A stretch of 64,000 nucleotides of DNA, from the NCBI GenBank assembly GCA_029532415.1, contig JAQOTA010000047.1:744001-808000 (forward strand). Direction: 5' to 3'. Numbering within the stretch: position 1 is the first letter of the stretch; the number at the start of each line of letters is the position of its first letter. Under the pieces are notes generated by a model, which was not told where the DNA came from, searched no databases, and saw nothing but the letters and a program-made list of their open reading frames with translations. The stretch is from Marasmius tenuissimus (lineage: Eukaryota; Basidiomycota; Agaricomycetes; Agaricales; Marasmiaceae). Both the position numbers and the translations under genes were made by a program. Below are positions 17,484 through 41,395 of this stretch, one piece after another.

Positions 17484-17507
17484 CTGGGAGGTGTTCAGTG
17501 TTCAGAC

Positions 17508-17700
17508 CCATTGGTGAAACCTCTAATGCGGGTCCCCGGTAGGGACCAGCCCTCACAACCCGGAATACCCTTCCCACATTGACGAGGATGTGAATAGTCG
17601 GGACCCATCGCCTATTCACGTACAATGGCCTGCATAGTGTAGTTTAAAATGTACATTAGCTACAGGTTGTACGAGAACATGGACATTTTACCCACCTTGA
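17508..17700 (+). repeat. Left terminal region of element B
   Basis: The outer ~30 bases are inverted relative to the right end of B. The whole ~190 bases match, on the opposite strand, the right end of element A (15610-15803), including gggacccatcgcc and cgtacaatg blocks. Confidence 0.75.
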
Positions 17701-17910
17701 AAAATGTTGTACATCTTTGTCTCCATCTTGGAGAAGATGTACAACTTGTGCCACAAGTTGGATACAACGATGTACAACAGGCTACAAGATGTAGCTGGAG
17801 TTGTACATCCTATACGTTATGCAAAAGGCGCACAACTTGGGGAGGGTGTACAGGCTGTTGCATGGTGGATGGGTCAGTACACATTGAATCACCATGCAGG
17901 GGATGTACAA
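17640..17910. repeat. TGTACA subterminal cluster, left end of B
   Basis: At least eight TGTAC(A) hexamers or near-hexamers in about 270 bases (aatgtacatt, ttgtacgaga, ttgtacatct, atgtacaact, atgtacaaca, ttgtacatcc, ggtgtacagg, atgtacaacc). Confidence 0.7.
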
Positions 17911-18590
17911 CCGTGAACACGAGTGGGGGGCCGGTACAGCCAGCGATGAGTAGGTAGGTAGGTGAGAGGCTTTGCACACAAAGGATAGAGGGGGCAACGA
18001 CACTTGTATTCATTCTAATATAGGTACAGGGAATGCAGCGAGTACAAGGTGATAACGAATGAATACAATGTTACAGGAGCAAAGCAGGAGCAGGGGGTAC
18101 GATAGCAACAACAGGGGAGACGACGAGCAAGCACAGTTCTGGAGGATCGGAAGTTAGAGCGAAAGTAAATCGACAGCGACGAGGAGTGCTTACCATTGAG
18201 AGGTTACAAGTATACATCAGCCTGTTGAACATGTGTGAGTATTAGGCTCGTGAGGCGATAACGAAGACTCACATTGACAAAAGGAATAGTTTGCGAACCT
18301 GCAGATACACTGTCAGTAAGAATACAAGTGATAGAAAAAGAGACGCTCACATTTCTAGGCATCGGTGCGGCGGAGGACAAGCCTGACCTTCGGTAACTTT
18401 AACGACGGCTGCCCTTGTACGTCGGTGTCATCGTCATCCTTGTCCTTCCTCTTCCTCTTCTTTGTCTTTTCCTTGACCCTGGTGTCATTGTCAGCCTTTT
18501 CCTTACCCTTGCCCTTCGACTTTGGCTTTGGCTTTGGCTTTTCCTCGGCCTCATTGTCGTCTTCAGCATCAGAATCATTGATAACTACAG

Positions 18591-19108
18591 TGTTGAACAT
18601 GATATAAATCATGTGATACACTGTTGACGTGTTGTTTACGCGTCACACTATTTATAGAGCTACGCCTCTAGAACACTTGCGTCCTCATGCAAGTACTACA
18701 TCTCTGTCTACGTATCTTACGACGTACATCTAGTTTCATCATATATGACACTATAGACAGCTGCTATCCAATAGCATAAGTAGAGCCTCCAATACATGAG
18801 GCAAACACGACTATGCTCACCAAGCATACTACCATTCATGGTAGAAGTACTTACACAGTACTAATGTCTTTTACGCCTTTAGGGCCGAATACCTACTTCT
18901 AGTAGTAGTTTCAGTTAGTGTAATACTCATTACATGTACCAGAAACTTATGTATAAAAGACTGGACAAAAGGCCTTAAGCCTTAGGACAATCTACTCGAT
19001 TATTACCTCTTCTCAAGCATCTCAAGACTACAAGAACACTCTGTGTATTACCCATGTGAGGTTTACTTCGTTATACCCACTGTGCACTTTAACTATGCTG
19101 GCTCATCA
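18591..19108 (+). repeat. 5' LTR of copia element
   Basis: 518 bp with TG...CA ends, preceded by TSD TACAG. It carries a TATAAAA box at 18952-18958. The first ~40 bases contain a short inverted repeat (catgatataaatcatg). Confidence 0.95.
18952..18958 (+). promoter_or_regulatory. LTR TATA box
   Basis: TATAAAA in the LTR, the likely core promoter of the genomic RNA. The same box recurs in the 3' LTR. Confidence 0.6.
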
Positions 19109-19123
19109 GGTTATGGGCCCCGC
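19109..19123 (+). other. Primer-binding site, half-tRNA-iMet type
   Basis: Directly after the LTR is GGTTATGGGCCC, complementary to the anticodon stem-loop of eukaryotic initiator tRNA-Met (GGGCCCATAACC) rather than to its 3' end. This is the half-tRNA priming known from Drosophila copia and yeast Ty5. Confidence 0.75.
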
Positions 19124-20108
19124 AAGCGGTGGTCAGGTCGATGTTATGATCGGAGTAGCCTAGCTCCCGTGTGTCGCCACCATCCTAGCGGACGACCTGT
19201 AACCTACATGGGTTATGGAAGTCTCTAGCAATGTCGGGCTTGTCATCGTCTGGTGTCAAGGTCAAGGGTTGTTAGTTCCCTTTACACCTATCCACTATGT
19301 CCCTGTACTGTTGCATGTTGCACGAACGCATGTACATACTGTCTTGGCTTCATCTTCTTCGGCATAGACCTATCTGCGTATGCGGCTCTGTCTCCCTGCT
19401 GATAACCCGGATTGGGCTTTGATCCTATATTATCACTGCCTAATGCCGATGAAAACCAATGGTTGGCGATGATCCTCACTATGAGGCATCGTTTAGGGTC
19501 TATGGGGTTGTGCTTATAAACCAACTCGCCATGATTCCTGACGGTCGAAAGACCGGGCATGACATACATGCTGGGAGATTTGATCTCCTTACAACTAGGT
19601 TTTGATACTATACAATTTTACGGTATCACATGGCCATTTTAGGGACTCCCCTTCCAATGACCCCTCTCTTCCACGTTATTGTTAAAACTCTAACTCACCT
19701 ATGATTGCTTTCTGGTCACCGACATGCCTAAGGCAGAGGGTGCATGAACTCAATTCATATGGATGACTAGGTTTAATAATAACTTTCTATGGGTCATTCG
19801 GACAGTATGAGCTGATCACTCATACTTTTGCTAGTCTGGGGTTGAGACCAGATAGCACGATGGGACACCAGACACCGATACACACTGGGAACGTTGTAAG
19901 ACCCTAGCAATTGGGCAGGGCTTTGTAACCAGATTAACTCCCCTGCACTACCTGCACGTGGTAACCCCATGATCTGTTTGACGCATACAGCCTGTTAAAA
20001 GTCCTAGCATTTCTCGGTGTGCATCGAACCCTATTTATTTATGGGTGCTTCTTAGAAGCCTTCGTCGATTGACACTCTCTTGGCTCCACCCTTCTATATT
20101 TGAAGAGT
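19124..20108 (+). other. Copia 5' leader
   Basis: About 1 kb between primer-binding site and gag. I see no meaningful coding frame. It presumably holds packaging and regulatory RNA structure. Confidence 0.5.
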
Positions 20109-22052
20109 ATGCTCACAGGACTTTTGGCAGACCTCAATATGTCTCAATCAGGATCAAGGTCTGCTTCTCATTCCCCAAGTGGTAATCCCCCAACGACGTT
20201 TGTTCGCAATATGCCGGGATACACTTTAGGAACGGAAGTAGAAAATTCTGTAGAAGTTTTTAACTACAATACGGAACCATTGTACTCTCAGGTTGCGGAC
20301 AGCAACTTTCCTGCTGGGTCAGGAGGAATCAGTATCATTCCAGTTTTGCTAGATGATGGTTCGAATTTCGAAGATTGGTACCGATTACTTGAGGGTTACC
20401 TCTTTACCCAAGGCATACCTCAAGCCTTGGATGAAGAAATGCCTGAAACATCCTCTCCTGCTACTTCAGGGGAAGCTACCGCTCTAACTGAGTGGACTTC
20501 TAGGCGTAACAAAGTAATTGGTATTATCAAAATGCGAACTCGTCGTGCTCACGACGCGCATGTTGATAAAACTTCGGTAGTTTCAACCTTATCTAAACTC
20601 AAATCTACGTTTGGAGTTCAATCTTCTTCAAAGATGATGAATCTGTATACGGACTTGCATAACGTCCAACTTCCTGAACACCTTAATCCAGTCCCAGGAA
20701 TCAGTTACATGCTGACTGTTCGGGACCAACTTAAGGATCATGGAGTAGATATTGCGGACGACTTGCTGTGCCTTATGATCACAGCCAAGCTTAATGAAAA
20801 GCGCTGGCAGCTTTTCAAGCAGCAAGTATCCCGTATGAAGAAGGAAGAACTTAAACCTACCGATTTGATTGCTGCAATTATGAATGAATGGAATAGAAGG
20901 AATGGAATTCATTCTGGTCCTGCTGCCTACACCGCCCATAATGCCAAAATTTCTGGTGTTAATAGATTTAACTCTCCTCCTAAATGGTCTGATCAGTCTC
21001 GTTCTGGTACTTCTGCAAATCAAAAGAAGAACAATAATAAAAACAACAACCAGAACCAGAACAATCAGAACCAAGGTGGATCTTCTCCCAAGAAAGGGAA
21101 GAAGAAAGGAGGAAAGGGCAAAGGAAAGAAGAAGGATACTCATAAAGGGGGACAACAATCGCACACTGCGGTATTTGAACCTTCTGAGAAACCTTCTGAA
21201 TACCAGAACCGAATTAATGCAGTAAACGAGCAAATCAGCTCAGTTTTTGAACGCGAAATGGCTGGGCCAGTAAACGTTCATATGTCCTACCACTACCCCA
21301 CTGGTAGCACATCTGCACCAAACCCATTCCAAAACACATATGATCTTCAACAAGCACGCCTAGAAGAGAGAATCGCTGCTGATAGAGAAGGTCGTCCTGA
21401 ACGACACATCTCTGTACAAGAATGGAACAATAGACGAACTGTTCAACTAGATGAACAGGTTCGACAAGTAGAAGAAGCTATCGCTTCGGCTACTACTTCC
21501 AATTCAAACATAGACAGCGATGGAGACGAGATACCATCTTTGGTGTACATCTCTGATACTCCGACGGAACCTGATAGTGACTCTTCATCTGATAATTCAT
21601 CAAATGATAGTCATACATGTTCTGCATATTCTTATGGCGCGCATAGTAATGAAGAAATTATCTTCACAATGCCACGACGAGAGGTGACACCTAATCATAC
21701 TTCGCCTGCGGACGAAGTTGACCAAGGTGAGAATCTCAAAGTAGCATCACCCACACAAGAAGACATACGTGTAACAGTTTCATCACCTCCTGACGATTAT
21801 GGACCATGGGCAGATTCTATGTTTCCTAGGGACCATGCCGATCTTGTTCATTTGTTCAGACCAGAAAACTATTCTCAAGATGGAGATGACATCACGCAGC
21901 CACCTCTCATCAATAGAAAAGTTGAATGGCGATTCTTACAAGAATACAAAGAACAACATGACAACTTGATGCGACGAGTTAACCTTAGGAATAATAGACC
22001 ACATATAATAAACGGGATTAAACTCCCAATTCCTGTCGTCGATGACTTCTGA
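20109..22052 (+). CDS. Copia Gag polyprotein
   Basis: About 647 residues from ATG 20109. The capsid-like part (about residues 75-270) has the copia Gag pattern: IIPVLLDDGSNFEDWYRLLE, then YTDLHNVQL, LKDHGVDIADDLLCLMI and an IAAIMNEWNRRNG end. A very basic Asn/Gln/Lys/Gly tract follows at about residues 305-348. No CCHC zinc knuckle is visible, so this tract may take over RNA binding. The C-terminal third is acidic and low in complexity. The frame ends in TGA (22050-22052); pol continues in the same frame 15 bases later with no other stop between. Confidence 0.9.
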   Translation: MLTGLLADLNMSQSGSRSASHSPSGNPPTTFVRNMPGYTLGTEVENSVEVFNYNTEPLYSQVADSNFPAGSGGISIIPVLLDDGSNFEDWYRLLEGYLFTQGIPQALDEEMPETSSPATSGEATALTEWTSRRNKVIGIIKMRTRRAHDAHVDKTSVVSTLSKLKSTFGVQSSSKMMNLYTDLHNVQLPEHLNPVPGISYMLTVRDQLKDHGVDIADDLLCLMITAKLNEKRWQLFKQQVSRMKKEELKPTDLIAAIMNEWNRRNGIHSGPAAYTAHNAKISGVNRFNSPPKWSDQSRSGTSANQKKNNNKNNNQNQNNQNQGGSSPKKGKKKGGKGKGKKKDTHKGGQQSHTAVFEPSEKPSEYQNRINAVNEQISSVFEREMAGPVNVHMSYHYPTGSTSAPNPFQNTYDLQQARLEERIAADREGRPERHISVQEWNNRRTVQLDEQVRQVEEAIASATTSNSNIDSDGDEIPSLVYISDTPTEPDSDSSSDNSSNDSHTCSAYSYGAHSNEEIIFTMPRREVTPNHTSPADEVDQGENLKVASPTQEDIRVTVSSPPDDYGPWADSMFPRDHADLVHLFRPENYSQDGDDITQPPLINRKVEWRFLQEYKEQHDNLMRRVNLRNNRPHIINGIKLPIPVVDDF

Positions 22053-22067
22053 GATTTCAGAGATCAG

Positions 22068-25000
22068 ATGACTAACGACATAGCACTAAAGGAATCCATG
22101 ATCAGAATGCGTTACAAATTAATACGCAACACACCAGACCATAATCTTTGGATCTGGGTTCTGATCAGGACCAGAGAATATGTCGTTATGTATGCTATCA
22201 GAAGAGATGCAGTGCATAATATGACACCTCGTCAAGCTCTTCATGAATTACGCATACAACAAAGGATATTACATGTGGAAACAGTAGAAGATACCAAGTT
22301 CACACTTCATTACGAATACCAAACCTGGAACCTTCAACACCTATCGACGGTTATAGCTGAAATCAATAACAAAAATTGGATCAGCACTGTTGAAGATTTT
22401 GTTCAACGAGTGAAAAATCCTCGTTCAACTTCGGTGGATGAAGCCTTCCGAGTCAATAAGAAGAACTTCACACTTCCTATACAAGTGATGAATCCTATCT
22501 TCTGGCATTCGTTAGTCAAGCTTGGTCTTGAAGGAAAATGGTTATTCGGAACGACAGACATAAGAGCGAGTCAATTTAGAACATCTCAATGGAGACAACC
22601 AGGGTTTAATAGGCGCTGGGTTCGCTTTATCCCTCACCTTAGTCTTCCAGATGTTCATAACTGGCACACGCACTTGTACAAATGGATGAACAACATTAGA
22701 ATGTCTGTTCCCATGACTCAGGCTGATATTCCTCAAAGAGAACTCGAGGGTGGTCGCTTCAATGAACGACCAAGAACATACCCCGGAGATTTCATGGAAT
22801 TAGCCGAGTCACTTAATCGTTCCAAATCTCCAATCTCTACTACCCATGAATACATAAATCGTCCCGCAACTACACCACCGAGAGTACAACAATGGCAGGA
22901 CCAAGTCGTTCACACACCTCCAAGCTCTCCTGAATCTTTTTATGGCATACAATCCTTAGAAGAGGATTACATTGATGTTCCTTCTCGCCCAACCACTGCT
23001 CCACCAGATCAACCGGAAAGACTTAGTCCGGTAGATGAACAACCTGAGGTTGACCCCTGGGTTACATCTCCAAGTGATCCCCGAAACTCTCAATTCGAGA
23101 ATTACGGACCTGCAGTAATTGGACTAAGGACCAATGGAATGCCCTTGCACGTTGCTAATGGCACGAGTATTGGCAATATCACTATGGTTGTTAATGATAA
23201 TCAGCCATATCAAGCCACGAGATTTGTTCAATGGCAGAACTATAAACACCAATTGGAAGCTTGGATAGAAGTTGAAGACGCAGCAAATCAACGTTATCAA
23301 GAAGAACTCAGAACAAGACGAGAACTTCTTGTTCGCCAAACATTCCAAAATCAGAATCAAGAACCGCTTCAATGGCATGAACGGTACTTTGATGATGGTG
23401 ACTATGGAGATGGCCTTGAAGGAGTTGATAACGATTGGGCTGAAAGCAACGATCGTGGAGACTGGCAAGTTTTTCAAAGTTCTAATAGTCAAACTTTCAC
23501 TAAATCCTCGATGCAGAACTATCATATCCTAAGGAACTCAGTACCAAGGAAATGTAGTATTTCTTCTGTATATGCAATGACGAAATATAAGTCGTTTTCT
23601 GCTGCATTTTCGAGTGATTGTGAAGTGAGAAATACGCAAAATGCCTGGCTACTTGATAGTGGGGCATCAGCGCATATGACTCCGTATAAAACGGATTTCT
23701 CAGACTATCAGACCTTGGAAATGCCAATAGGTCTTACTACATCAGCGGGTGATAAAGCAAATGTGCAAATAGTAGGCTATGGTACTGTCCTCATACGACA
23801 CACCAATAGCGCAGGAGTGACGCAAGTCACAAAGTTATACCCAGTGATGTATAATCCAGACAGCCCACATCGTTTAATCTCTAGTGGGAAGTTCCGGAGT
23901 ATAGGTTACTATACTTTGCTGGATTCTCCAGAGACTTCGATCCGGAGCAAGAAAGATGATTCTCTTTTAATGAGCTTTTACCCAAGCCATAAAGATGATC
24001 CTTTACGATGGATGAACGCGAAGGTTCTTGTGGGAGAAACTTCCTTCACATCTGTTGTATCTTTCAATATTTCTGAATTATGGCACAGACGTATGGGACA
24101 CTGTGATCCCAGAGTCTTAGGAAAATTAATGGATAATGTTAAAGGGCTTCCAACGAAGTTGGTTACTTCGAAGGGAGAAACGAAACCATGCCGAGGCTGT
24201 GCCAAAGGCAAAATGGTTGCCAAATCGTACCCTTTATCCTCAAAACGAGCTAAGGAGCCTCTTGAGCTCGTGCACGGAGATTTGATAGAATATCCAACTC
24301 GCTCTTACTATCAAAACGAATATGCTTTAACCTTATTCGATGATGCAACATCATACGGATGGGTATATCCAATTCGTAAAAAGAGCGATACAGATCTGAA
24401 ATTGCGCAATTGGCTAGCTCTTGTAGAGCGCCAGACTAATAAAAAGGTCAAAAGTGTGCATTTCGATCGAGGAGGAGAATTCTTTTCAAATGAACAATGG
24501 GATTGGTATAACTCTCTAGGAATATTTCCACAAAGAGGTTTTCCCAACGTGCATGAACAGAATGGACGAGCAGAAAGATTTAATCGTACACTACGAGAAA
24601 AATCTGAAGCTATGTGCTTTCAGGCTTGTGCGCCTGAAAATTGGTGGGAATTTGCAATTCTCACAGCTGTCCATATCTACAATAGAACTCCTATTCATTC
24701 GAGGAAATACAGAACTCCAGTTGAGTTGTTTGAGAATAAGAAGCCTGATGTTTCATACTTCAGGACGTTCGGATGTGGCGCATATGCATACATACCGAAA
24801 CGTAAAAATAAGCTTGCTCCACACTCTGAAGCAATGATTTTCATTGGTTACGAGAGCGGATCAAAAGCTTATCGATTCTTTCGAACAACCAACAATTCTG
24901 TATACATTACTCCACAAGCAGTTTTTGATGAGAACTGGTTTCCTAAATGTCAGAAAGAAGTGCCCGGATCCATAGAGTTTGATAAAACCGATAAACCTGT

Positions 25001-27176
25001 CCGGTCTATACCCTTTCCAACGTACCCATATGATGGCCACGAAGATCATCACAATGATGATGATTTCTTCAATCCTCCACCTTCACCAGGATCAGATGAT
25101 GACGATCATCAGCCTGGGGAAGATCCTCCCTTGGATCCTATCCCAGATGATAAAAGCGATGATGTGCACAACGGCAATCATCCAAGTACTGATGGATTCG
25201 GATCACCGAAAGGCTCCGATCACAATCCTAATCAGTATGGACCGGATCCACGGTCTGCTGGTTCTTCTGGAAATACAAATCCATTTGGATTTCGCCAAGC
25301 TGACTATGATGAGTGGGAGAACTTACGAGCTCCTCCACCAGCAGCTGCCAGAAGAAACCCTCCAAGAAATAGAGTAACTCCCAACCGTCCGTTTAATGTT
25401 TACGGAAATCGGCATCCTGTTGAGATCGAACGCGATATCAATTCTCAAGCACGCTGGCAGAGTCAAATTAATCCAACAAATGAACCTGAAACAATACCAA
25501 ATAAGGTTCCTAATCCAGCCGCTCCTATGGACACAGATGACGATATGAGCGATCTTGCTCAGCAAGGGGGAGAAAATTACTTGGTTTACTTGCTGAATAA
25601 CGGTCATCAACTATATGGTCTTCAAGCCAGTAGTTATGATAACGTTCGTGAATGGACATACAAACAAGTCCAGAAGCGTCCTAAAGATGAACGACCATCT
25701 TGGGAAGCAGCATGCAGACTGGAATTACAATCACTCAAAGATAGAAACGTCTTTGATGTGGTCACACTACCCAAAGGCCGAAAAGCGGTGAAATCCCGCT
25801 GGGTATTTGACATCAAGTCTGATGGCCGTAAAAAGGCAAGACTTGTTGCGAAAGGATTTTCGCAGAAACAAGGGATAGACTATAACGAGTTGTTCTCTCC
25901 TGTAGTACGATTCGAAACCGTACGACTTCTATTGGCACTAGCAGCGCTTGAAGATTGGGAGATCTCTGCGCTAGACGTTAAAACAGCTTTTCTTTATGGT
26001 GCCTTAGATGAGGAGATTTACATGGAACAACCTGAAGGCTTCGTTACGGACTCCAGCAAGGTTTGGAGGTTACGCAAAGCATTGTACGGATTAAAACAGG
26101 CTTCTCGTGCCTGGTGGCGTCAGTGTACTGAATCCATGAAATGTCTGGGATTCAAACGATGCTTATCCAATGCTGGCGTATATGTCTTCAACAAGAATGG
26201 CAATATGGTCATTGCTGTCGTCTATGTCGACGATGCTTTATTCATGGGTCCTGATCGCAACCTTGTCAACAGACTAAAAAGCGAATTCATGAAAATCTGG
26301 GAATGCCGAGATCTAGGCGAGCCAACAGAATTTCTGCGAATGCGAATTACTCGAGATCGGAAGAATCGCAGACTGATCCTTGATCAGCGAGACTATCTTG
26401 AAAAGATAATTCGTAAATTCGGAGTTCTGAACGCCAAAACGGCATATACGCCTTTGCCAGAAGGCTATAACCCAACCCAAAACCAGGGGGAGGTTAATCC
26501 CGAGATTAGGCATAGATTCCAATCGGTTATCGGATCATTACTTTACTTGGCTCTCGGAACGAGACCAGACATATCCTTTGCTGTAATCAAGATGTCACAG
26601 TATGGAGCTAATCCTAATCAGGAACACCTCCAGAAGGCACTTTACATCGTGAAATACCTTGTTCACACTGCAAAGTACGAACTCATTTACGATGGTAGAT
26701 CCAACCAAGGACTACTTGCCTTTGCTGACTCTGATTGGGCAACTGATAAAGATGATCGTCGATCACAGACTGGATATATCGTAAAGCTTGCCAATGCACC
26801 AGTTTGCTGGGTCTCTCAGAAACAGAAAATGGTTGCATTATCATCCACGGAAGCAGAGTATATGGCTCTATCTGACTGTACACGTCAGGCTTGCTGGATG
26901 AAGTCGTTATTGAACGAATTGAACTTCCCGATTCGATCAGTTCCATGTGTTAGCGATAACCAAGGCGCTATCTTTCTCAGCAGCAATGAAGCTACTGATA
27001 AAAGAACGAAGCACATCGACAATCGATACCACTTCATCAGGGAAGCAGTGGAACATGGAAAGACTCAAATCTATTTCGTTGAAACTGCTAAACAACCTGC
27101 TGATCTTCTTACGAAGAATCTTGGCAGAACAAAGTTCGAATTGTTCAGGCAATCTTTAGGATTAACATTTCACTAG
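22068..27176 (+). CDS. Copia Pol polyprotein (PR-IN-RT-RH)
   Basis: 1702 residues from ATG 22068. Residues 1-520 have no recognised domain and make this Pol unusually long. Then: aspartic protease with LLDSGASAHM (~528); integrase zinc finger ELWHRRMGH...CRGCAKGK (~670-705); catalytic Asp in VHGDLIEY (~736), Asp in HFDRGGEF (~797) and Glu in NGRAERFNR (~832); a Pro/Asp-rich linker (~970-1130); reverse transcriptase with SRWVFDIK, ALDVKTAFLYG and YVDDALF (~1386); RNase H with FADSDWATD (~1553), SSTEAEYMAL (~1592) and KHIDNRYHF. No frameshift or stop. The PR-IN-RT-RH order is diagnostic of copia. It lies in frame with gag behind one TGA. Confidence 0.95.
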   Translation: MTNDIALKESMIRMRYKLIRNTPDHNLWIWVLIRTREYVVMYAIRRDAVHNMTPRQALHELRIQQRILHVETVEDTKFTLHYEYQTWNLQHLSTVIAEINNKNWISTVEDFVQRVKNPRSTSVDEAFRVNKKNFTLPIQVMNPIFWHSLVKLGLEGKWLFGTTDIRASQFRTSQWRQPGFNRRWVRFIPHLSLPDVHNWHTHLYKWMNNIRMSVPMTQADIPQRELEGGRFNERPRTYPGDFMELAESLNRSKSPISTTHEYINRPATTPPRVQQWQDQVVHTPPSSPESFYGIQSLEEDYIDVPSRPTTAPPDQPERLSPVDEQPEVDPWVTSPSDPRNSQFENYGPAVIGLRTNGMPLHVANGTSIGNITMVVNDNQPYQATRFVQWQNYKHQLEAWIEVEDAANQRYQEELRTRRELLVRQTFQNQNQEPLQWHERYFDDGDYGDGLEGVDNDWAESNDRGDWQVFQSSNSQTFTKSSMQNYHILRNSVPRKCSISSVYAMTKYKSFSAAFSSDCEVRNTQNAWLLDSGASAHMTPYKTDFSDYQTLEMPIGLTTSAGDKANVQIVGYGTVLIRHTNSAGVTQVTKLYPVMYNPDSPHRLISSGKFRSIGYYTLLDSPETSIRSKKDDSLLMSFYPSHKDDPLRWMNAKVLVGETSFTSVVSFNISELWHRRMGHCDPRVLGKLMDNVKGLPTKLVTSKGETKPCRGCAKGKMVAKSYPLSSKRAKEPLELVHGDLIEYPTRSYYQNEYALTLFDDATSYGWVYPIRKKSDTDLKLRNWLALVERQTNKKVKSVHFDRGGEFFSNEQWDWYNSLGIFPQRGFPNVHEQNGRAERFNRTLREKSEAMCFQACAPENWWEFAILTAVHIYNRTPIHSRKYRTPVELFENKKPDVSYFRTFGCGAYAYIPKRKNKLAPHSEAMIFIGYESGSKAYRFFRTTNNSVYITPQAVFDENWFPKCQKEVPGSIEFDKTDKPVRSIPFPTYPYDGHEDHHNDDDFFNPPPSPGSDDDDHQPGEDPPLDPIPDDKSDDVHNGNHPSTDGFGSPKGSDHNPNQYGPDPRSAGSSGNTNPFGFRQADYDEWENLRAPPPAAARRNPPRNRVTPNRPFNVYGNRHPVEIERDINSQARWQSQINPTNEPETIPNKVPNPAAPMDTDDDMSDLAQQGGENYLVYLLNNGHQLYGLQASSYDNVREWTYKQVQKRPKDERPSWEAACRLELQSLKDRNVFDVVTLPKGRKAVKSRWVFDIKSDGRKKARLVAKGFSQKQGIDYNELFSPVVRFETVRLLLALAALEDWEISALDVKTAFLYGALDEEIYMEQPEGFVTDSSKVWRLRKALYGLKQASRAWWRQCTESMKCLGFKRCLSNAGVYVFNKNGNMVIAVVYVDDALFMGPDRNLVNRLKSEFMKIWECRDLGEPTEFLRMRITRDRKNRRLILDQRDYLEKIIRKFGVLNAKTAYTPLPEGYNPTQNQGEVNPEIRHRFQSVIGSLLYLALGTRPDISFAVIKMSQYGANPNQEHLQKALYIVKYLVHTAKYELIYDGRSNQGLLAFADSDWATDKDDRRSQTGYIVKLANAPVCWVSQKQKMVALSSTEAEYMALSDCTRQACWMKSLLNELNFPIRSVPCVSDNQGAIFLSSNEATDKRTKHIDNRYHFIREAVEHGKTQIYFVETAKQPADLLTKNLGRTKFELFRQSLGLTFH

Positions 27177-27202
27177 TTCCATGATTGCATGATGAACTTA
27201 GT

Positions 27203-30395: not shown

Positions 30396-32640
30396 TCATT
30401 GCCTCGATGATTCCTTCACCCTCGCAACTTGAAGGTGAGGATGAAGGTCCAGCTGCTCATTGGTGAGTCTCTCCTCGTTCTTTCCTTCCCTCGAAATGAC
30501 CCCCCCGACAATCCACTGATTCTGAGGTTCCTGTGCCTTTAGGTACCATGTGCGAACACGATGAACAAGCTTTCCAATATGCTCGTCGTTACCTGCTATG
30601 GCCACCAACAAGGCCATTTCGGTGCTCGGCTTGATGGGATCTGTCGTCATATGGATGAACCCGTGTGTGATAGTGTGTGTGACGGACATGTCCCCCCGCC
30701 CCGACTTGTATTTGACCACTACACCCCGGGATGTCAATTTGGGAGTGACATAAACGGGTCTCCCTCCTGAATTGTGCGGACCACCAACAATCGACACCTC
30801 GATCTTCAGATCAACAAGTTTTGGGTGTAAGATCCAATGGTCGCGTTCTGTTGGGGCTAGCTCGCCCAACGGGTTCCAAGGGTCAGATGAGTGTTGAGAA
30901 AATTGTGGAGAACGGGGAGGTGGTGTAGGAGTGTGCGGTCAAGGGGTACGAGGGTTTACGACAGGGAGCCTATCAAACCTCGAAAGGTAAGAAGCCGGGG
31001 TGAAATTCGGATGAGGGAGATCTGGGCAGAGGTACCAAACCTCATAGGTATGGTCCATCGGGCGCCAGAGGTTCAAACGGTGAAGACTTTTGATTTCGAC
31101 AATGTCCCTGTAGTCGATCCTCTCGATAGGTGCTTCCCGGCCTGCTAGTATGATGTCCAGCTCGATGTCGAGCAGCAAACCAGATTTGACTGAGGTGAGG
31201 TCGGCCTCCGGCGACATGTCAATGACCGTCCAGCAGGGACCAGTTGATGTGTACGCCTCGGACAGTTCCCGTAACACCCTTTCGTTGAGAACCAATGACC
31301 AAGATGGTGGCCCCGACCCAGGGCCCACAACGACCAGTGTACATGGGTCACATTCCAGTCTCTTCTGGACCCAGATTAGGACCCATCACTTCCTCAGTCG
31401 GTTCATCTGTTTGTGGAGTTTGCTCGGTAGAGGGTTCGATAGCAGGTCCTGTAGAGGGTTCTGCAGAGGCGGTAGAGGGTTCGGTAAAGGTTTTGGGAGT
31501 AGTTTCATGAATGTGAGGTGAGCTTGATGAGCCTTCAGCAAGAAGACTAGCGGAAACAACGTCGGCGATGACCCTGGCAGTGTCCCAGTTGGTCATTCGA
31601 AAGTGATCAGACGCTCGTATCTAGCCAATAACGTCTGTGTTACATCTATGCCAGTTCCGGGGTTTCCGAAGGCCTCTATCCACCTTCCGGAGATTCCGAT
31701 ACTCGGAATCTACTTTATGTTTTCTCTTCCTTCACGATCCTTTCCGGAACATGACTTCGGATTCCGACGTCGTGTCCCCGGTACTTACGGATCGGAGATA
31801 CATATACACCGTTCATTTCCGAGTAGTACGTATACTCTACATTCCGACATTCCGCTCTCCATTCTATCATGACTCATCTCATACATTCCATTCTGACACT
31901 TCATTTCCGATTCATCTCCGACTCCGGGACTTCATCCTCCGTCTCGGATTGCGTACTGTACATACATTCACTCCCGCTCTTGTCTCACCTTCGGTACTAT
32001 GATCGCCGGAACCCCTTTGGAGGTCTCGGAGATCGATACATATATAAGCTAGATACTTCACGACTTGTATTCCTTAGAGTTAAAATCAACTTGGTTTCCG
32101 TTTATCTCATTCGTCTCATTCCGTCTCTTTATCTCTATCTCCTATTCATCTTTATCTTCCTTTCCTTCCGGTCAAGGACAACTCAACTCAACGGTGTCGT
32201 TGGCGAAACCTTCGACTATTGTCCAGCCATCCGTTCGGCCTTCTGGTCGTCGAAATCTCTCCAACCCCGACTAGTCCATTCCAGCACGTTGGATTCCGTT
32301 CTCTTCCGCTCGGACCTCTGTCCAAGCTGTCATATCCGCACGATCCTAACAGTCCGATTGGAAGTCTCTCTTTCGTTTTTTTGCCTGCTCTCGTTCTCGC
32401 TCAACTGCCGCTTCATTTTCATCTTCCCATTCGTTGTCATCTCTGCGATACAGTGCCAATCTCGAAGATCCTTCCTTGTCCCGCCGCATTAATCTTGGCT
32501 GAATCAAAAGAGTTAGTGAAATCCAGATTGTAGTATCCCCACACATACCATTTCGGTGTTTTGGTACAGAGAGGTTTGGTATATGGAGAGTTGAAGAGGT
32601 CCGAGCTGAGCGGGTGACACCCGGCCTGTAGAAAAACAAA
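30396..32640 (-). pseudogene. KOW-type transposon-associated protein, split by a solo LTR
   Basis: Minus strand. After a leader intron (acceptor ttctacag) the reading is TKTPKW, then RRDKEGSSRLALYRRDDNEWEDENEA with a charged region (AKKRKRDFQSD), where LTR1 (31638-32351) cuts in. Beyond it: TNWDTARVIADVVSAS, a Pro/Ser/Glu stretch, a KOW-like GSQRKGVTGTVRGVHINWS, ILAGREAPIERIDYRDIVEI, and a C-terminal RPVYVTPKLTSRGVVVKYK...AIAGNDEHIGKLVHRV segment ending VKESSRQ. This C-terminal pattern (AIxGxHxGKxVRRI) is common in agaricomycete transposon-linked proteins with Spt5-like KOW motifs. Frames change between pieces, including an in-frame TGA in the KOW segment, so I treat it as decayed. It points away from the promoter module at 32.5-32.9 kb. 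Confidence 0.55.
31638..32351. repeat. Solo LTR 1 (714 bp)
   Basis: Starts TGTTACATCTATGC, ends CCGCACGATCCTAACA; ends form the short inverted repeat TGTTA/TAACA. Contains tatataagct followed by a ttggcgaaaccttc block shared with LTR2. Flanks gtctg and gtccg are a near-perfect TSD. It is rich in TTCCG repeats. No internal retroelement sequence is attached. Confidence 0.75.
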
Positions 32641-32886
32641 CCGTCAGCATTGATGCTGCGGTTTTCAGTTTAGAGATAATGTAAAATTCATTCATGAGGG
32701 CATTTTGCCCTCTTAGAGGGCCGTAAAGCATTTAAATCTTTTAATTTAATGTTCTAACTACGTTGTATGTATTGTATGTATTGTAGGTACAAGAAAAAAA
32801 AGGAAAACTTACTATGTTGAGGGACTCAACCACGATGGTGGTGGTAATGAGTCAAGCCAGGCATGAGGCTGTGCATCATGCGCGAG
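32500..32886 (-). promoter_or_regulatory. Promoter/leader module, left (minus strand)
   Basis: Read on the minus strand: ccaccaccatcgtgg, short exon, donor gtaagttt, an intron with an agagggcaaaatgccctc hairpin and gctgacggttt, acceptor ttctacag. The same series appears on the plus strand at 36528-36836, where it leads into the Plavaka transposase. It is the leader of the KOW-type gene. Confidence 0.6.
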
Positions 32887-33795
32887 TGTTACATCCATGC
32901 ATCTTACCCTGGTCTATCTCACCTAGTCACGTCACACTTGGCTAGTCACATCACCTCCGGACCCATTCCGAGTATTTCCGGGTATTTCCGGGCTATTATT
33001 CTAGCTCATTCCAACACTATTCCATCCCCGGCACTCAACCCTCACTTCCACGGTTCAGTCTCTCACACCAAGTCCATCCCTGGAACCTCCGCCATTTCCA
33101 CCTCCGCTTCTGGGACTCTTTCCATCTTATTCTGACTTGTTCTGACTTACTTATCTCCGACTTCCGAGATATTCCCACGCTCACTTATTCTATTCATATC
33201 TTCATTCCATCATGCACTTATTCATTTCCGGTTCATTTCCCTTCCGGTACATTTCTCCCCGTATTTGACTTCCATATGATACATCAACCTTTCCCGCACT
33301 TGACTCACTTATGATTCATTCATTTACTATAACCCTATATAAGCTCTATACTTCTATCCTGTATCTTTAGACTCGAAATCAACCAGGACTCACCTGGATA
33401 CTTCTCTATCATGTCTTTTCTTCTATCTCGCAACTTGTCCTCTTAGTCTAGTAGAAGGACAGCTCAGTTCATGGTGCTGTTGGCGAAACCTTCAGCTACT
33501 GTCTGCTCCAGATCCGTTGCTCCCACACTCCTTCATCATATCTCTTTCCTATCCATCTATCCGACAGCATATAAAATCCCATATCTTATCTTATCCCTAT
33601 CCGATCCGCACGATCCTAACAGCGAGCGCGGGTTGTATCCAGAGCCAAACAACGATTCTGGCGCAAGCGCCTTGAGCTGGCGCCTAGCCTAACCCCAGGC
33701 GCTTGCGCCAGAATTCTTGTTTGGCTCTGGATACAACCCGCGCTCGCGCACGATGCACAGCCTCCTCCCTGGCTTGATGCATTACCACCACCATC
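32835..33795. repeat. Large inverted repeat interrupted by solo LTR 2
   Basis: Left arm 32835-32886 plus 33622-33671, right arm 33698-33795 in inverse order; inner arms of about 50 bases differ at only two or three positions. The loop is about 27 bases. LTR2 with its GCGAG duplication lies inside the left arm; removing it restores complementarity through gcgcgagcgcgggttg. It may be a fold-back element or a palindromic bidirectional promoter. Confidence 0.85.
32887..33621. repeat. Solo LTR 2 (735 bp)
   Basis: Starts TGTTACATCCATGC, ends CCGCACGATCCTAACA, with perfect 5-bp TSD GCGAG on both sides (32882-32886, 33622-33626). Contains tatataagct and is a diverged relative of LTR1. LTR-LTR recombination must have removed the internal region. 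Confidence 0.88.
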
Positions 33796-33880
33796 AGCTA
33801 TTCTATGACGCTGACATACAACATTCCCGGTGAGTTTTCTTCACTTTTTGTTCATTTCTACCTACTAACATATTCTACAG
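33748..33880 (+). promoter_or_regulatory. Promoter/leader module, middle (plus strand)
   Basis: ccaccaccat block, short exon to a gtgagttttc donor (about 33831), intron to attctacag (about 33881). It is the mirror partner of the left module and reads toward the actin fragment. Confidence 0.45.
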
Positions 33881-34149
33881 CTATAATTGGGGGTCTCTCA
33901 AGCACCACAGCCGGCGAGGACAGCGAAACTCTTGGAGAACCTCATTTACCCTTGGGAACAACGAGGGTGGATTCGGTGACAAGTCCAAAGAAATTTATGG
34001 ATCCGTGATTGGCTGTTGGCATGATTCGGGATGGGAGATGAGGAGAGATAGGGCGACTTTGTAGAACGGATATTGACACGTTGATGGTGCATATCTTTCC
34101 AGTTTCACCTTCGTTGTACTGATGTACTATCCCAACTAGCAGGCTACGT

Positions 34150-34796
<647 letters not shown>

Positions 34797-34994
34797 AGGA
34801 ATACTCTGCTGAACATCTCAGTCAGACACAGAATGTGATGTTGGACAATCTTCGCGATTACGGGCTGTTATGGCATGGACGTGTACGTTCCACATCCCTT
34901 CATTCACCCTGCATCTCACTGATTTCTCTGGCCCGCAGCCCAATTTATGACAATTCAGAGCCCAACGTGGGCTTTCACAATCCAGCTTGATTTC

Positions 34995-36293
34995 ATGAAA
35001 ATGGATATCGAGATGACGGATCCCTTAACTCGCTATTTGTCTGTGCCCCAGCAACATCCCGACGCTGATCACTCGACTTCTCCTTCACGGTTGCCCACTC
35101 CGGTGTCGGTTCTCCCTGCTCCAAGGCATAGGTCTACGTCATCATCGGCGTGTAAACGGGTAGAACCTAAGCCTGAGCCCACGTCTGAAGCTGAATCTTC
35201 TGTTCACTCTACATGCTCACCTCCTCGCTTACCGACTCCTATATAAGAGGCACCATTGCTATCCACCCAGCAGCTGCCAAAGCCTTCTGCGCCGCCAGTT
35301 CTTCCTGTTCAAAGTCCTACCGTATCAGGTCAAGCATGGCCAAAGCGTAAACGGGTTGACACTACACCCCCAGCCCCAGCCCTGTCGTCATCTTCCTTAA
35401 CAATAACACCCAACCACCCACGGCTCAAGGACGCTTTTGCTATTGTCAAACGGAAAGCGATAGCTTCTGCTGCTATGTCGTAGCCAAAGCGAAAACGACG
35501 AATAGACCCTCCTTTTCTACCGTCTACCGGTCCACCATTGGATAGGTTATTCACACCTCCGGTTGGTGGTGGTGAGGAGAAATGAGGGGAGGAGGTGCCG
35601 GTACCGAAGACCAAAGCACCGCCGAGACCATTCCCATCAGCAGCAGTGGCTAACTCTTCATCCAACACGAGGCAGCCGTCAAAACCAACACCTGTATGGC
35701 AGCTACCGTCATCTTCGTCTAGTTCCGCCAAACCATTGCCAGCGCCGGGCCCTCTACTGGATAGGCTGTTCACTCCGACACCGGTACCAGTACCGAAGAC
35801 AAAGGCATTGTCAAGACTACCTATGTCTGCAGCAGCAGCCAACGCAAGTCCAACATCCGTACGGCAGCCACTATCGTCATCCTCAGGCCCTCTGCTGGAT
35901 AGGCTATTCACTCCGACACCTGAACCCAAACCCAAACCTACACCCATTGATGAAGTTCAGAGACCTAAACAGCCGCTGGTGTCAGTGAGAAGCGGAGTCA
36001 TGACGATGAAAGCTGCCCCAGCGAAGCCATTGTCTGTTCTGTCCTCATCATTGTTGTCCTCTGGTGTACGAAAGGACCCTCTGTCCAATCCTCCGTGTGG
36101 TTTCGTCCCCTATGAATACAACCCGTGGCTGATTCGATGCTGCCGAATGATGAGGAGGATTTGTTGCATGAACCCAAGGTTTCGCCTGAGCAGGAAAAGC
36201 GGTTTAGAATGTTGGCATTCCTTGTGGTTGCTCTCCTTTCGCTCTTCCTGTTGGAGAGAGAGAGTCAATACCATTGAGCATGCAAGAAATTGA
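34995..36293 (+). pseudogene. Pro/Ser-rich repeat ORF broken by three stops
   Basis: One continuous frame from ATG 34995 (MKMDIEMTDPLTRYLSV) to 36293, interrupted by TAA at 35244, TAG at 35481 and TGA near 35583. The protein is rich in Pro, Ser and Thr with a tandem unit holding GPLLDRLFTPTP (near 35750 and 35890, a shorter GPPLDRLFTPP near 35530) and VPKTKA. Basic PKRKR patches (near 35340 and 35485) could be nuclear signals. Each stop is one C-to-T change from a Gln or Arg codon. No family is recognised. It may be an accessory ORF of element B. Confidence 0.55.
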
Positions 36294-36297
36294 CTGT

Positions 36298-36379
36298 GCC
36301 CTCATAGTAAAGTGGTTACGTCGTTAGTTGCAGCTCCTGCTGGTCTGAGCGGCTCTCGGTTCGAATCCGAGAGAGGGCC
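36298..36379 (+). tRNA. tRNA-like sequence (probable pseudo-tRNA or SINE head)
   Basis: Acceptor arm GCCCTC/GAGGGC (6 bp plus one mismatch), D-arm GTA/TAC with AAGTGGT loop, and a perfect T-arm CTCGG-TTCGAAT-CCGAG (B box GGTTCGAATCC). A run of T residues follows at about 36420. The 35-nt middle does not fold into a normal anticodon arm, either as class I with intron or as class II, so I cannot name the isotype. Confidence 0.45.
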
Positions 36380-36527
36380 CTGAGTCCAGCCTTTGCACGT
36401 AAACTTTTGTTTCTGTTTCTTTTTTTTCTTCATCATTTCACGTAGTGTACTATCACTGTTGTATCTAGATTTTAATGTCATTGATTTTCCCTCAACCCCA
36501 TCACCCACTCAGAGTGATTTGACTGGC

Positions 36528-36836
36528 AAGGTTTAGCGCCTGGGTTTGGCCTAGGTGCTTGCGCCAGAATCTTTATTTGGCCTTGCGTACAAACCACGCT
36601 GGTTGGCCCGTGGCAAGTCCGGTGTCTCTTTCAACTGGACCACCACCATCGTGGTCAATTGCCCTTCAACGAGGTAAGTTTCTGCTGTATAATTACTTAG
36701 AACCTATACTAGAATCATAAAACATAATTTTAAACACAATATGAGTCTTTAAGAGGGCGAAAAGCCCAATAAAATCCAATTTCGTTGTCTCTAAATCAAA
36801 AACCTCAGCCTGCATGCTGATGGTTTGTCCGTTTTC
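36528..36836 (+). promoter_or_regulatory. Promoter/leader module of the Plavaka transposase
   Basis: Starts with a partial palindrome (tagcgcctggg...aggtgcttgcgcc) like the core of the 33.7 kb inverted repeat, then ccaccaccatcgtgg, donor gtaagtttc (about 36694), intron and acceptor ttctacag (about 36840). Homologous in inverse order to 32500-32886. Confidence 0.6.
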
Positions 36837-36930
36837 TACAGACTAGGTATCTTTCGAGACGTGTTCTATGCGGCACGTACATTGGCGGATGCGATTATTG
36901 TGGTGGATCTTCCTCTTCGTTGTTCTCGCT

Positions 36931-39900
36931 ATGCCAACATGCCCGACCTGCGGAAAGTTCTACAAGGCCGTTGGAAACCTCACGACGCATCAGAAGAAGG
37001 GTTGCGCCCAGGCCTTATCCGTTAATCAGAGAATAATGGCAAATCGCCGAGAAATGAAGAGAAAAGAGGTGTTGGGGGAAGAATTGGGTCACAATGAGGT
37101 ATGTTTTTTGGTTGTTTGTTTCCGTTTTAGAGTATTAACGACTACTAGGACATCAAATCATTGATTTTGCCCACAACGGAGGAAATACAACAGCGAGAAC
37201 TCGAACCTGTGCCGGAAGTCCCTATACCCAAGGTATCCGTTGGGATTTCTCGTGCTGGCCGCCAACGTTTCCAGCCACGATACCTGCAAGATTATGTTCC
37301 ACATCCTACAGTCAGGCTCCCAAGTGTCCTTCCTAGGGCTCCCACTCCTCCTCCACCAGAACCAGAGCCAGCAGGTCCACCTCCAGACCCACCTACCTCG
37401 AAACCTAGCCCACCACCAGAGCCAACTCGCATCACGACAGAGCTAGATGAATACAGCCTCTATCGTGTCTATTCCAAATACCCAGCCAAGGTTCCAGACG
37501 AGGAAGTAGGCGTAGAGGACGTCTGCGAGGGAGCTGGCTATCAGGAAAAGACAAAGGCCAACCCTCTCTTGATATTTGGATTGTCAGATCCTGACTCTGA
37601 GGGGATTTTTGCGCCCTTTCTCAATGCAACCATTTTCCGACTCATGAGTTGGTTTTACGGGCCGAAGAACACAAAGAGCATTGCGGGTTTGGATTCGCTG
37701 GTCAACGAAGTTATCCTGGCGGATGACTTCAACCGAGACGACCTGGTGGGATTCAGGACACAAGGTGAACTGGAGAGGCTGGATGATTACGCCAAACCAC
37801 GTTCAAACCTTCGTCCCAAGGATGGGTGGGTCGAGGCAGAGGTTTGCATACGTCTGCCGGCAGAAGATGTCGAACAGAAGGAGGAGGATGCCCCCAAATT
37901 CCCTATTCCCAATGTTTTCTACAGGAAGCCACTAGAGATTATCAAGTCAGCCTTTCAGCCTGATGCGGCGAAAAAATTTCACTACGTCCCATTTCAGCAG
38001 TTCTGGCAACTGCTACCACCATCACCCAACGATCCTCCGCCACCTTCACAGCGTATATACAGCGAGATCTACAATTCAGATGCGTTCATTGAAGAATACA
38101 AGAAGATTCAGACCCAGGAATACCATAATCCTCGGCCTCAATCCAATGATCCGAAAGATCCGCCAATTGAGAATGCCATTGCGGCTATGCTCTGGTGGTC
38201 AGATTCGACCCACCTCGCCAGTTTCAGAGATGCTTCTCTGTGGCCACTGTACTTGTTCTTCAGAAACCAGTCCAAGTACGATCAAGCGAAGCCTACAACA
38301 TTTTCCGCACATCATACAGCCTACATACCTGATGTGAGTAGCTTTTTTATAACACTGCTATGATAACTGATAGTTCTCCAGCTCCCAGACAACATTCAAG
38401 AATGGTACCAGGACTTATTTGGAGTCCCTGCCAGTGGGGCTACGCTCACTCATCTGAAGCGGGAAATCATGCACGCAATCTGGGCCCTGATCCTCAATGA
38501 TGATTTCATGCACGCCTACGAGCATGGAATTCTCATTCAGTGTGCAGATGGTGTCGTGCGCCGTATCTTCCCCCGGTTTTTCACCTACTCTGCGGACTAT
38601 CCCGAAAAGTAAGTTGCTATCTACTGCTATATCTCGTTTGCTCACAATGCTCCAGGGTTTTGCTAGCTACTATACGAAACCTCGGTTGATGTCCATGCAC
38701 TCAATGTTGTGTTGAGAAAGACCAGATCCACGAACTCGGGATGCTATGTGACTGGCAACATCGAGAACGCAAGGCTCGCGTTGATACAGAGGACAGGCAA
38801 AGCACGATCGAGTGAGTTTGGACTTGGATCTTTGCGAAAGGCAGAGCTGTTGCATGCTCTGCAGTCAAAGCAGTGCTACAAGCCAAGTCATGGGTCCCGA
38901 CACGGGTATGTACATCTACTTACCAATGGCAAACACCTTACGCTGACAATAATCGCAGAACACATTCTCAGAGCGCTTTCACAAGTTCGGAATGAACTTT
39001 TACAGTATGCTCGTGCCAGATATATTGCACGAGTTTGAGCTTGGAGTTTGGAAGGCTACCTTCATTCACCTCCTTCGCATTCTGTGCAGCATAGGCAGCG
39101 ATTCAATACAAAAGCTCAACTCCAGGTAAGGTATTGCTTATTGCGTTTGAGCATCCTGCTGACTATGCTTTCAAGGTATCGAATGGTCCCTACGTTCGGC
39201 CGGGACACCATACGCAAGTTCTCCGTCAACGTGTCAGCCATGAAACAGCTTGCAGCCAGAGATTTCGAGGACCTACTTCAGGTTCATAGTACCTGGTCTT
39301 TCCCGTTGTTTCTTACTGACTCGTTTGACATGCAGTGCTCCATTCCTGTATTCGACGGCCTTATTCCCGACCACAACAACATCGTTCTCGACCTTCTTTA
39401 TGACATTTGTACTTGGCATGCGTACGCCAAGCTACGTCTGCATTCAGAGACCTCCATCGCAGACATGGATTCCGCAACAACCTCCCTTAGCAAGTCTTTG
39501 AGGAGGTTCAAGACCGCTGTCTGTTCTGCCTACATTACCAAAGAATTACCAAAGGAAACTGCAGCTCAAGGTCGTCAAAAAGCAGCCCTGGCAAAGAAGC
39601 AGGCGGAGACCGGGAACACCAAACGGAAACGAACAGGTGAAGCATCGGGTGCTAAGAAGAAGCAGTTCAATATTAACACCTACAAGCTGCATGCCCTTGG
39701 GCATTACATTTGCTTCCTTCGTTTGGTTGGCACGACAGACAATTATTCGACCCAGATTGTATGTTTCTTTTTCTTGATCATAAGTAAATTACTAACCATC
39801 TGCAGGGTGAACTAGAACATCGGCGTGTCAAGAGGTTCTACGCTCGTACAAACAAAGCCAAGTTTGTCAAGCAGGTGGCCAACCATGAACGGCGAGAGCA

Positions 39901-41045
39901 GATCATTCGCCGCATTGAGGCTCGAGTGGTGAAAGGTAAAGAGCCTCAGAAGCCCTCTGACTCTGAGCCCCCGCTGGTCACCTCTCCCAACACACACCAT
40001 TTCATCTCGGCGGACTGCAGTAACTGGTTCAACGTACGAGAATGGATGAACAAACACAGCGGTGACCCCGCAGTCAACGTAAGTCGTTCCAATTCTTTCT
40101 TAACCACTATCTAACCATCATTCGCAGGGCTTTCTTTTCAAACTCAAGAACCACCTACTCTCCGTTATCCTAAACTGCCAGGATGACCAGTTCTCCAGCA
40201 AAGAATGTGCTAGTGTGAAGATAATTAACGATCGTATCTATTGCCACAAGGTCCTCGACGTTCAGTACACGTCGTATGACCTACACCGGTGCCAGGACTC
40301 CGTCAATTTGGGAAACCATCCCGACGTTATGGTTCTAGCTGGCGAGAGGGAGCCCGACTCTCACCCTTATTGGTATGCATGCACACTCGGGATCTTCCAT
40401 GCTCATGTTTACTACGAAGGTGATGGACGGTTGAGGGACATCACATTCCTATGGGCTCACTGGTTCACGCTTGACACACAGTACAAGTTTGGGCCTGCAA
40501 GAAAACGATTACCAAGGGTCGGATGGGTCGACAGCACTGAACCTGGGGCTATTGGTTTTCTCGATCCGCAACATGTCCTGCATGCAGCTCATCTTGTTCC
40601 TGCTTTTGCTCTCGGAAAGCGCTCGGACCTCATGGCACCTACAATCGCTTGCCGGGACCAGGATGAAGGGAAAGACTGGAATAGACACTACATATGCATG
40701 TAAGTCGCACGATCATTTACTGTATCCTCGTTACTGATTTTCTGCAGCTTTGTCGACCGTGATATGTTTTCTCGGTACGTGCCAGGTATTGCCGTCGGCC
40801 ACACAACGCACCTTCCGAAATGCCACGAGGTACCTCAAGAGCAGCCGGAAGGTCAACCTATGGACGAATCCGAGCTTGTCGATGAGGAGATGGAGGTATC
40901 ATCGGGCGAGGAGAATGAGTCTGAGCTCGATGACTACGGTTATCGAGACTCTGACGAGGAATGTCAGTCTGAGATTGCTTTTGAGGACGAGTCAGTAGAC
41001 GACACAACAGACGTTTTACACGCTGAGGGCTATGCTCACCTGTAA
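36931..41045 (+). pseudogene. Plavaka-family transposase with N-terminal C2H2 finger, two premature stops
   Basis: This encodes the transposase that would mobilise elements A and B. N-terminus MPTCPTCGKFYKAVGNLTTH is a C2H2 finger. A Pro-rich linker and the Plavaka core follow: VYSKYPAKVPDEEV, DADSEG-like DPDSEGIFAPF, NATIFRLMSWFYGP, WWSDSTHLASFRDASLWPLY, KPTTFSAHHTAYIPD, LKREIMHAIWALILNDDFMH, AYEHGILIQCADGVVRRIFP, RFFTYSADYPEK, CPCTQCCVEKDQIHELGM, NTFSERFHKFGMNFYSMLVP and DILHEFELGVWKA, ending in an acidic tail. At least eight GT-AG introns. Two TGA codons lie in conserved coding stretches (38687-38689 before CPCTQC; 38813-38815 before VWTWIFAKG); the second could be avoided by an atypically short intron. 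Intact otherwise. Placement near the right end and orientation outward fit an element-encoded gene. Confidence 0.85.
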
Positions 41046-41290
41046 CTTAGATGTTATGTATTGCACGCTCATGGACATGTACTCATATAAAATGATGTTC
41101 TCCATTGTACAATGATCCCGCCCGATGACCGAGAGTGTACACGCCATTCCCAACTTGATATAGGTAATGTACATTTTATGTTCCATCTTTCCTGTGAGTG
41201 TACAACTCACTACAACCTTACCGCGCTTGTACAACCTTGCTAACGATTTTATTCAGGGTACAACTCGTTACATCTTTTCGTAGGGTGTAC
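41045..41290. repeat. TGTACA subterminal cluster, right end of B
   Basis: Repeated TGTAC(A): atgtactca, ttgtacaatg, gtgtacacgc, atgtacattt, gtgtacaact, ttgtacaacc, ggtacaactc, gtgtacatat. It mirrors the left cluster. Confidence 0.7.
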
Positions 41291-41395
41291 ATATTTGCCA
41301 ACAACATGGCAAGCTACTGACCCATGTCTCCCAACCTGGCCGCCAGTGGCCATTCCTTAAATACTCGGGACCCGTCCGAGGGGTTTTGCCAATGG
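41291..41395 (-). repeat. Right terminal region of element B
   Basis: Minus-strand CCATTGGCAAAACCCCTCGG..GGGTCCCGAGTATTTAAGGA; matches the left end of element A at 13801 (GGGTCCCGAGAATTTAAGGA). Confidence 0.75.

Follow-up and report, generated by a model that had tools for sequence, protein, structure and literature searches.

Host gene fragments in an internal slot of a Plavaka-type transposon family of Marasmius tenuissimus

The stretch of DNA analysed here (the window) comprises 64,000 nucleotides of the genome of Marasmius tenuissimus, which is named among the thread-blight fungi of cacao (PMC8581569). It corresponds to C23:744001-808000 of the 71-Mb genome searched, where C followed by a number denotes a contig. 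A Plavaka-type transposon lies in a single intron of R2, a membrane-protein gene of the mushroom host, and the same intron of the paralogue R1 is empty. The features of the element and its flanks, with TIR for terminal inverted repeat and TSD for target-site duplication, are as follows.

11656..11729, minus strand: R1 intron, the paralogous empty site; 74 nt, GT..AG
13801..15803, minus strand: short non-autonomous family member; 2.0 kb, TSD TG
17484..41450, minus strand: R2 intron with the element; GT..AG
17507..17508: left target-site copy CC, differing from the right copy GC
17509..41394, plus strand: whole Plavaka-type element; 23,886 bp including nested insertions, delimited by inverted ends, the empty R1 site and paired ends in 21 other elements
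17509..17521, plus strand: left TIR, CATTGGTGAAACC; commonest form in the family CATCGGCGAAACC
17509..18108: left TGTAC-rich subterminal region; 20 motifs in 600 bp against 2.8 in order-1 simulations
18591..27729, plus strand: nested Copia LTR retrotransposon; flanked by TACAG at either end, 0 differences between its LTRs in 520 bp
27867..28778, minus strand: accessory gene 1, main ORF; 302 codons between stops in copy C, Copia element just 3'
30312..32669, minus strand: KOW-type accessory gene, located by tblastn with the copy C protein; in-frame stops, a frame change, split by the solo LTR-like insert
31638..32351, plus strand: solo LTR-like insert; TG..CA, flanks GTCTG/GTCCG
32834..33795: hairpin-like repeat; 53-bp imperfect inverted ends
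33985..36252, plus strand: cargo slot, a mosaic of gene fragments
37149..41045, plus strand: Plavaka transposase gene; multi-exon, premature stops in the window copy
40945..41394: right TGTAC-rich subterminal region; 14 motifs in 450 bp against 1.8 in order-1 simulations
41382..41394, minus strand: right TIR
41395..41396: right target-site copy GC

R1 and R2 are 77-78% identical on both flanks of the insertion, and the reading frames of R2 are open on either side of the element when read by eye. Once the element and one of the two 2-bp target copies are subtracted, the R2 intron comes to 79 nt, compared with 74 nt for the R1 intron. The sequence thus bears out the earlier note in placing the element inside one R2 intron whose R1 counterpart is empty, and the empty paralogue supports the element limits independently of end prediction, as had been argued. 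The limits given there, 17508..41395, were right as to the inverted ends and wrong as to the exact bases, since the true ends, 17509 and 41394, each lie one base further inside. The TGTAC-rich subterminal regions described before are likewise present: motif counts are far above the simulated ones in the window copy and similar across eight large copies (18-20 in the left region, 9-14 in the right). These arrays are putative transposase binding sites. Elsewhere in the window, positions 235-6071 and 51747-59172 hold repeats about 65-78% identical, with some hydrophobic frames (by eye), perhaps a local gene family.

The genome was searched with a 301-bp query from each end, giving 28 left-type places (excluding 13 reverse-strand matches inside left ends) and 27 right-type places. 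Left-type places at C4:96692, C3:1297186, C5:2574007, C5:2579204, C7:1776664 and C35:837185 were excluded as unpaired, truncated or odd, as were right-type places at C7:1030875, C54:174777 (copy I, a large copy whose left end was not found), C28:2400861 (part of copy J), C33:390997 and C7:1774994. The family then comprises at least 22 copies with both ends inverted and readable flanks, 21 of them with a perfect 2-bp TSD; mispaired flanks, used as a control, matched in 35 of 462 cases. By the earlier note, its reading would have fallen if the two ends never co-occurred elsewhere; 21 other inverted pairs were found in the genome. Eight of the 22 elements are large (12,440-23,886 bp; six other large copies measure 12.4-15.3 kb) and 14 are short (1.9-3.3 kb). 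Termini with CATCGG at the start and GATG at the end were found in 20 of the 22, the others being copy D (CAAC..GATG) and the window copy (CATT..AATG). The latter is also the sole element without a perfect TSD (CC/GC), and its terminal differences from the family form are of the C-to-T type, at CpG.

Several arrangements within the family were seen in passing. The 2.0-kb member at 13801-15803 lies only 1.7 kb from the large copy, which may reflect local hopping. Two non-autonomous copies of 3.3 kb (L031 and L037) are 98.9% identical at different sites with different TSDs, a sign of recent movement. Copy J (C28:2385000-2406032) has a perfect TSD, a 15.6-kb insertion within its right end and an internal deletion. 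At C5:2573501-2579800, two left-type ends point in opposite directions at a distance of about 5.3 kb, and a right-type end lies between them, forming a composite or rearranged element.

Plavaka elements are reportedly the subject of Iyer et al. 2014. The transposase that had been noticed at one end of the window element is a multi-exon Plavaka gene on its right side. Its exon alone scores 26.0 bits against PF18759 (cut-off 26.3) and 57 bits together with its frame neighbours; the exon of copy C scores 36.5 bits and has 595 homologues, with PF18759 in 119 of the 120 listed. The copy C exons read open, with introns placed by eye, and contain CPCTQC and HALGH between CADG and GELEHRRVKRFY; the C(2)C and H(3)H motifs and the D, D and E contexts were assigned by eye. 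The published description of Plavaka, which distinguishes PlavakaA and PlavakaB, gives C(2)C and H(3-4)H motifs between the second D and the last E (PMC12730594), and a target duplication of 2 or 3 bp is a further trait of Plavaka. Motifs of this kind are present in copy C at that place (by eye), and duplications of 2 bp in 21 of the 22 elements, the window copy excepted. The family shares with Plavaka the PF18759 transposase, both motifs, 5'-CA..TG-3' ends and the 2-bp TSD; it differs in its KOW-type partner gene, its gene-fragment slot and its termini, which instead of the CATCA..TGATG stated for PlavakaB are mostly CATCG on the left (20 of 22) and CGATG on the right (18, with TGATG in 3 and AATG in the window copy). 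TIR motifs have also been characterised in Marasmius oreades (PMC8290104). Complete Plavaka elements are already in print, termini and TSDs included (PMC12730594). Judged by these sequence features, the window element is a decayed member of the Plavaka group of cut-and-paste DNA transposons (CACTA-like, with a DDE transposase).

From left to right, the element carries the leftward accessory gene 1, the leftward KOW-type gene, the slot and the rightward transposase. The two accessory proteins have 2 and 17 homologues, respectively, all named Marasmius. Accessory gene 1 had been called DUF6698-like; since the copy C ORF, its window counterpart and the two homologues gave no Pfam match, this identity was dropped. 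The KOW-type gene, which itself gave no Pfam match, resembles one Marasmius protein with KOW motifs, and this similarity supports the name that it had been given; the predicted structure of its protein, with a mean pLDDT of 43.5, was too poor to bear on a KOW fold. Of 15 KOW loci that are diverged, 13 lie within 15 kb of a Plavaka hit on the same strand: at 12 the KOW match lies 1.1-2.9 kb before the hit and at the thirteenth 11.3 kb before it, and 2 are without one. In the family, the spacing is 3.4-6.8 kb in seven of eight copies, including nested inserts in the window copy and in copy A, and copy D is without a listed hit. By this spacing, the Plavaka transposase seems to have a permanent companion in the KOW-type gene. 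Because the distance is shorter at the diverged loci than in the family copies, the slot is probably added DNA.

The nested retroelements reported before were found as a Copia element with identical LTRs and a solo LTR-like insert. Both are missing at those places in all seven copies compared (A, B, C, D, Ee, F and I). The outer parts of the hairpin-like repeat also occur in B, C, D, Ee and I, and its inner 0.74 kb (32887-33621), present in D at another place, is an additional insertion. Nested insertions amount to about 10.6 kb, and the window copy is larger than the other large copies mainly because of the Copia, solo LTR-like and 0.74-kb inserts. A high-copy repeat of about 2.7 kb accounts for part of the 15.3 kb of copy A. 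The native element would have measured about 12.4 kb or somewhat more, with TIRs, TGTAC arrays, two leftward accessory genes, the slot and a rightward transposase. Of the complete giant cargo-bearing Plavaka proposed earlier, the completeness stands, given the paired ends and the empty paralogue. The giant cargo element is not supported: the size comes in large part from nested insertions, the KOW-type gene is an apparent conserved partner of the transposase, and the window transposase has premature stops. Within the Copia element, at 20073-27176, gag and pol share one frame with a single in-frame TGA (22050-22052) between them; pol runs for 1,707 codons without a stop and the LTRs are identical, so that read-through of the TGA is possible.

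The order of events was duplication of R1 and R2, insertion of the element into R2, decay and Copia insertion, with no absolute date. The earlier word "dated" was too strong, since the empty R1 site gives order only and traceless loss from R1 is possible. Over 4,886 aligned columns, private substitutions numbered 4 in Ee, 8 in C, 22 in B, 42 in A, 45 in F, 60 in I, 101 in the window copy and 209 in D, counts that vary with which relatives are in the alignment (here eight copies). Of the 101 in the window copy, 61 are C>T or G>A, 29 of these at CpG. On this view, the window copy inserted into R2 once the duplication had taken place; C-to-T change at CpG would account for part of its decay, and Copia would have enlarged it recently.

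The notable feature of the element is its gene-fragment slot, which had been glimpsed earlier only as an actin fragment; that fragment is present as one piece among many in a mosaic. In the window slot, 2,145 of 2,268 bp have a match at some other place in the genome, or 1,185 if the weak C41 match is set aside, as listed here.

33985..34202, plus strand: two pieces matching C7:855861-856194; 76 and 85% identity
34202..34789, plus strand: actin fragment matching C6:62263-62955; 94 and 90%, sense, 95 bp of coding sequence missing inside
34794..34958, plus strand: Tfb2 fragment matching C17:25848-26012; 85%, sense, retaining a 56-nt intron (34883-34938)
34970..35053, plus strand: piece matching C10:3814239-3814322; 92%
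35054..36013, plus strand: diverged match to C41:553970-554752; 64%, 960 of the 2,145 matched bases
36083..36252, plus strand: SKN1/KRE6-type fragment matching C35:83441-83659; 97-98%, sense, coding sequence missing inside

The same mosaic, minus two stretches, occurs in copies F and I. The slot of copy A holds two pieces each from C12, an AMP-binding gene (C33) and an importin-type gene (C69), followed by the high-copy repeat, on account of which a shortened stretch was searched. That of copy B consists of a C3 array, a C19 NACHT locus (95 and 99%) and again the C3 array (94-98%). Nesting is visible there; as these identities give no age order, the nested piece may or may not be the younger capture. 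The region C3:120000-275000 holds many scattered matches to the copy B pieces, perhaps a paralogue array. Copy Ee carries pieces of a fungal kinase (C20, 96-97%), C19:2667k, C21, C29 and C10:5917k, and copy C the same slot minus part of the kinase. Copy D has the last four Ee pieces together with C41, C7:4416k, C27, C7:1743k and C24, some of only 48-71 bp. The five slot versions (window/F/I, A, B, C/Ee and D) therefore match about 20 separate loci, counting C41 once. The slots of C, F and I were read via matches to the Ee and window slots, and the search covered the Ee slot outside its L017 part and the D slot outside its L015 part. Pfam scanning covered 81 of 165 slot ORFs of at least 60 aa and 20 source-locus proteins, scanned singly, of which 8 ORFs from 7 loci (L055 twice) gave gene names: actin, Tfb2, SKN1/KRE6, AMP-binding, importin-type, fungal kinase and NACHT. 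A 3.9-kb control region next to the slot (27735-31634) yielded 33 matches. Each fell in a family copy or inside the KOW-type gene, and no captured gene pieces were found.

Each of the seven pieces identified by Pfam runs in the sense direction relative to the transposase strand (p about 0.016 in a two-sided binomial test, a small sample); the C10:3814k, C12 and C41 pieces look sense as well, on the evidence of open frames only. In the Tfb2 piece, the retained intron is bounded by GT-AG, and joining the flanking exons of its C17 source gives a continuous frame, which we take to fit Tfb2. Introns are apparently also kept in the kinase piece and in the C10:5917 piece of D (by eye). Ten gaps inside pieces were read and none joins at GT-AG. 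Most are coding (C35, C12, C33, C69, the first C20 gap and part of the second). The retained Tfb2 intron and the missing coding sequence in other pieces indicate that the source was DNA or unspliced RNA. Capture of cDNA as the main route was rejected on the same gaps, the 95-bp actin gap having resembled a spliced intron and proved to be coding. At nine deletion junctions, microhomology was 0-2 nt, with no excess over the random mean of 0.67, and microhomology-driven repair was set aside. A 124-bp stretch of C10:5917 missing in Ee looks like a later deletion, since it is intact in D. Copy C resembles B over its first 3.9 kb, both B and Ee up to the slot, and Ee from the slot to about 9.9 kb, beyond which B and Ee are inseparable; such a pattern would be as expected of gene conversion or recombination.

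We consider it probable that this is a Plavaka copy in which intergenic breaks were repaired with genomic patches and deletional end joining, and whose filled slots were spread by transposition. Breaks would arise between the divergent KOW-type and transposase genes, repair would combine patches copied from other genomic sites with end joining that deletes sequence, and transposition would then spread the filled slots. The sense bias would most likely reflect selection against antisense RNA to essential host genes. An ordinary Plavaka copy whose "cargo" is the debris of unrelated insertions or rearrangements in one dead copy might be suspected, as the window copy is broken, carries nested insertions and ranks second in private substitutions among the eight copies (101 of 4,886 columns). 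This is quite unlikely, however, because the window mosaic is common to F and I and another to C, Ee and partly D, shared mosaics occur in copies that sit at different sites and have perfect TSDs (F, C, Ee and D), the copies with the fewest private substitutions (Ee, 4; C, 8) also hold captured pieces, and the control region is without such pieces.

Pre-mRNAs reverse-transcribed during break repair would give both the sense bias seen in seven of seven identified pieces and forward skips, and same-locus pieces are indeed colinear wherever there are at least two, except in the C3 array of B. Yet GT-AG joins are absent from the ten gaps, which are mostly coding, the 56-nt Tfb2 intron is kept (as are, by eye, those of the kinase and of the C10:5917 piece of D), and DNA copying with later deletion fits, given the 124-bp skip of Ee that is intact in D; such capture from RNA is very improbable. 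We regard as equally improbable that the slot pieces would be expressed chimeric genes under selection, produced by exon shuffling. The sense bias agrees with that idea, as do two long stop-to-stop frames, one of 525 codons across the NACHT piece in copy B and one of 469 codons across the kinase piece in copy Ee, but the missing stretches (49-575 bp) are not multiples of three in seven of nine cases, and the longest plus-strand frame touching the window slot has 235 codons. Repair of intergenic breaks with genomic patches remains our preferred reading. A bolder reading, which we think unlikely, would make the slot a dedicated site at which a recently mobile family has captured DNA again and again, sampling host genes that are expressed, in sense direction and possibly via unspliced RNA or transcription-linked breaks; the family would then work as a gene-fragment library with contents exchanged between copies by conversion.

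Helitrons are rolling-circle elements without TIRs or TSDs. Those of Pleurotus ostreatus resemble the present family in that genes have been captured in a mushroom (PMC4289320). The nearest parallel to the Marasmius slot, as far as its description goes, is Tgm-Express1 of soybean, a 5.7-kb CACTA element in a host intron, carrying both exon and intron segments from five host genes unrelated to one another (PMC1947982). Both are CACTA-like elements in a host intron with host gene pieces; the soybean case is a plant element of captured pieces, whereas here a fixed slot occurs in fungal transposase-encoding copies. Plant Pack-TYPE elements are also TIR elements that hold host coding fragments, as does this family, but are defined as non-autonomous (PMC8903248), whereas here the fragments lie in transposase-bearing copies. 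A hAT element of Dothideomycetes with a captured histone H3 likewise joins a fungal DNA transposon to a housekeeping gene; it amplified one gene (PMC6710886), in contrast with the serial mosaics at one slot seen here. In the literature searched (mostly non-subscription journals, main texts), no report of gene capture by Plavaka was found, a search on CACTA and basidiomycetes was also without match, and the combination of a known transposon family with a gene-collecting slot was not found.

Serial capture of pieces of host genes by TIR transposons has so far been described mainly in plants, and here it occurs in a compact fungal family. The data further suggest that the KOW-type gene travels with a Plavaka lineage. 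Five slot versions and their likely source genes lie in the same genome, which allows direct inspection of source strand, intron status and the scars of repair, and the Marasmius slots make the acquisition of gene pieces by DNA transposons testable in a small genome.
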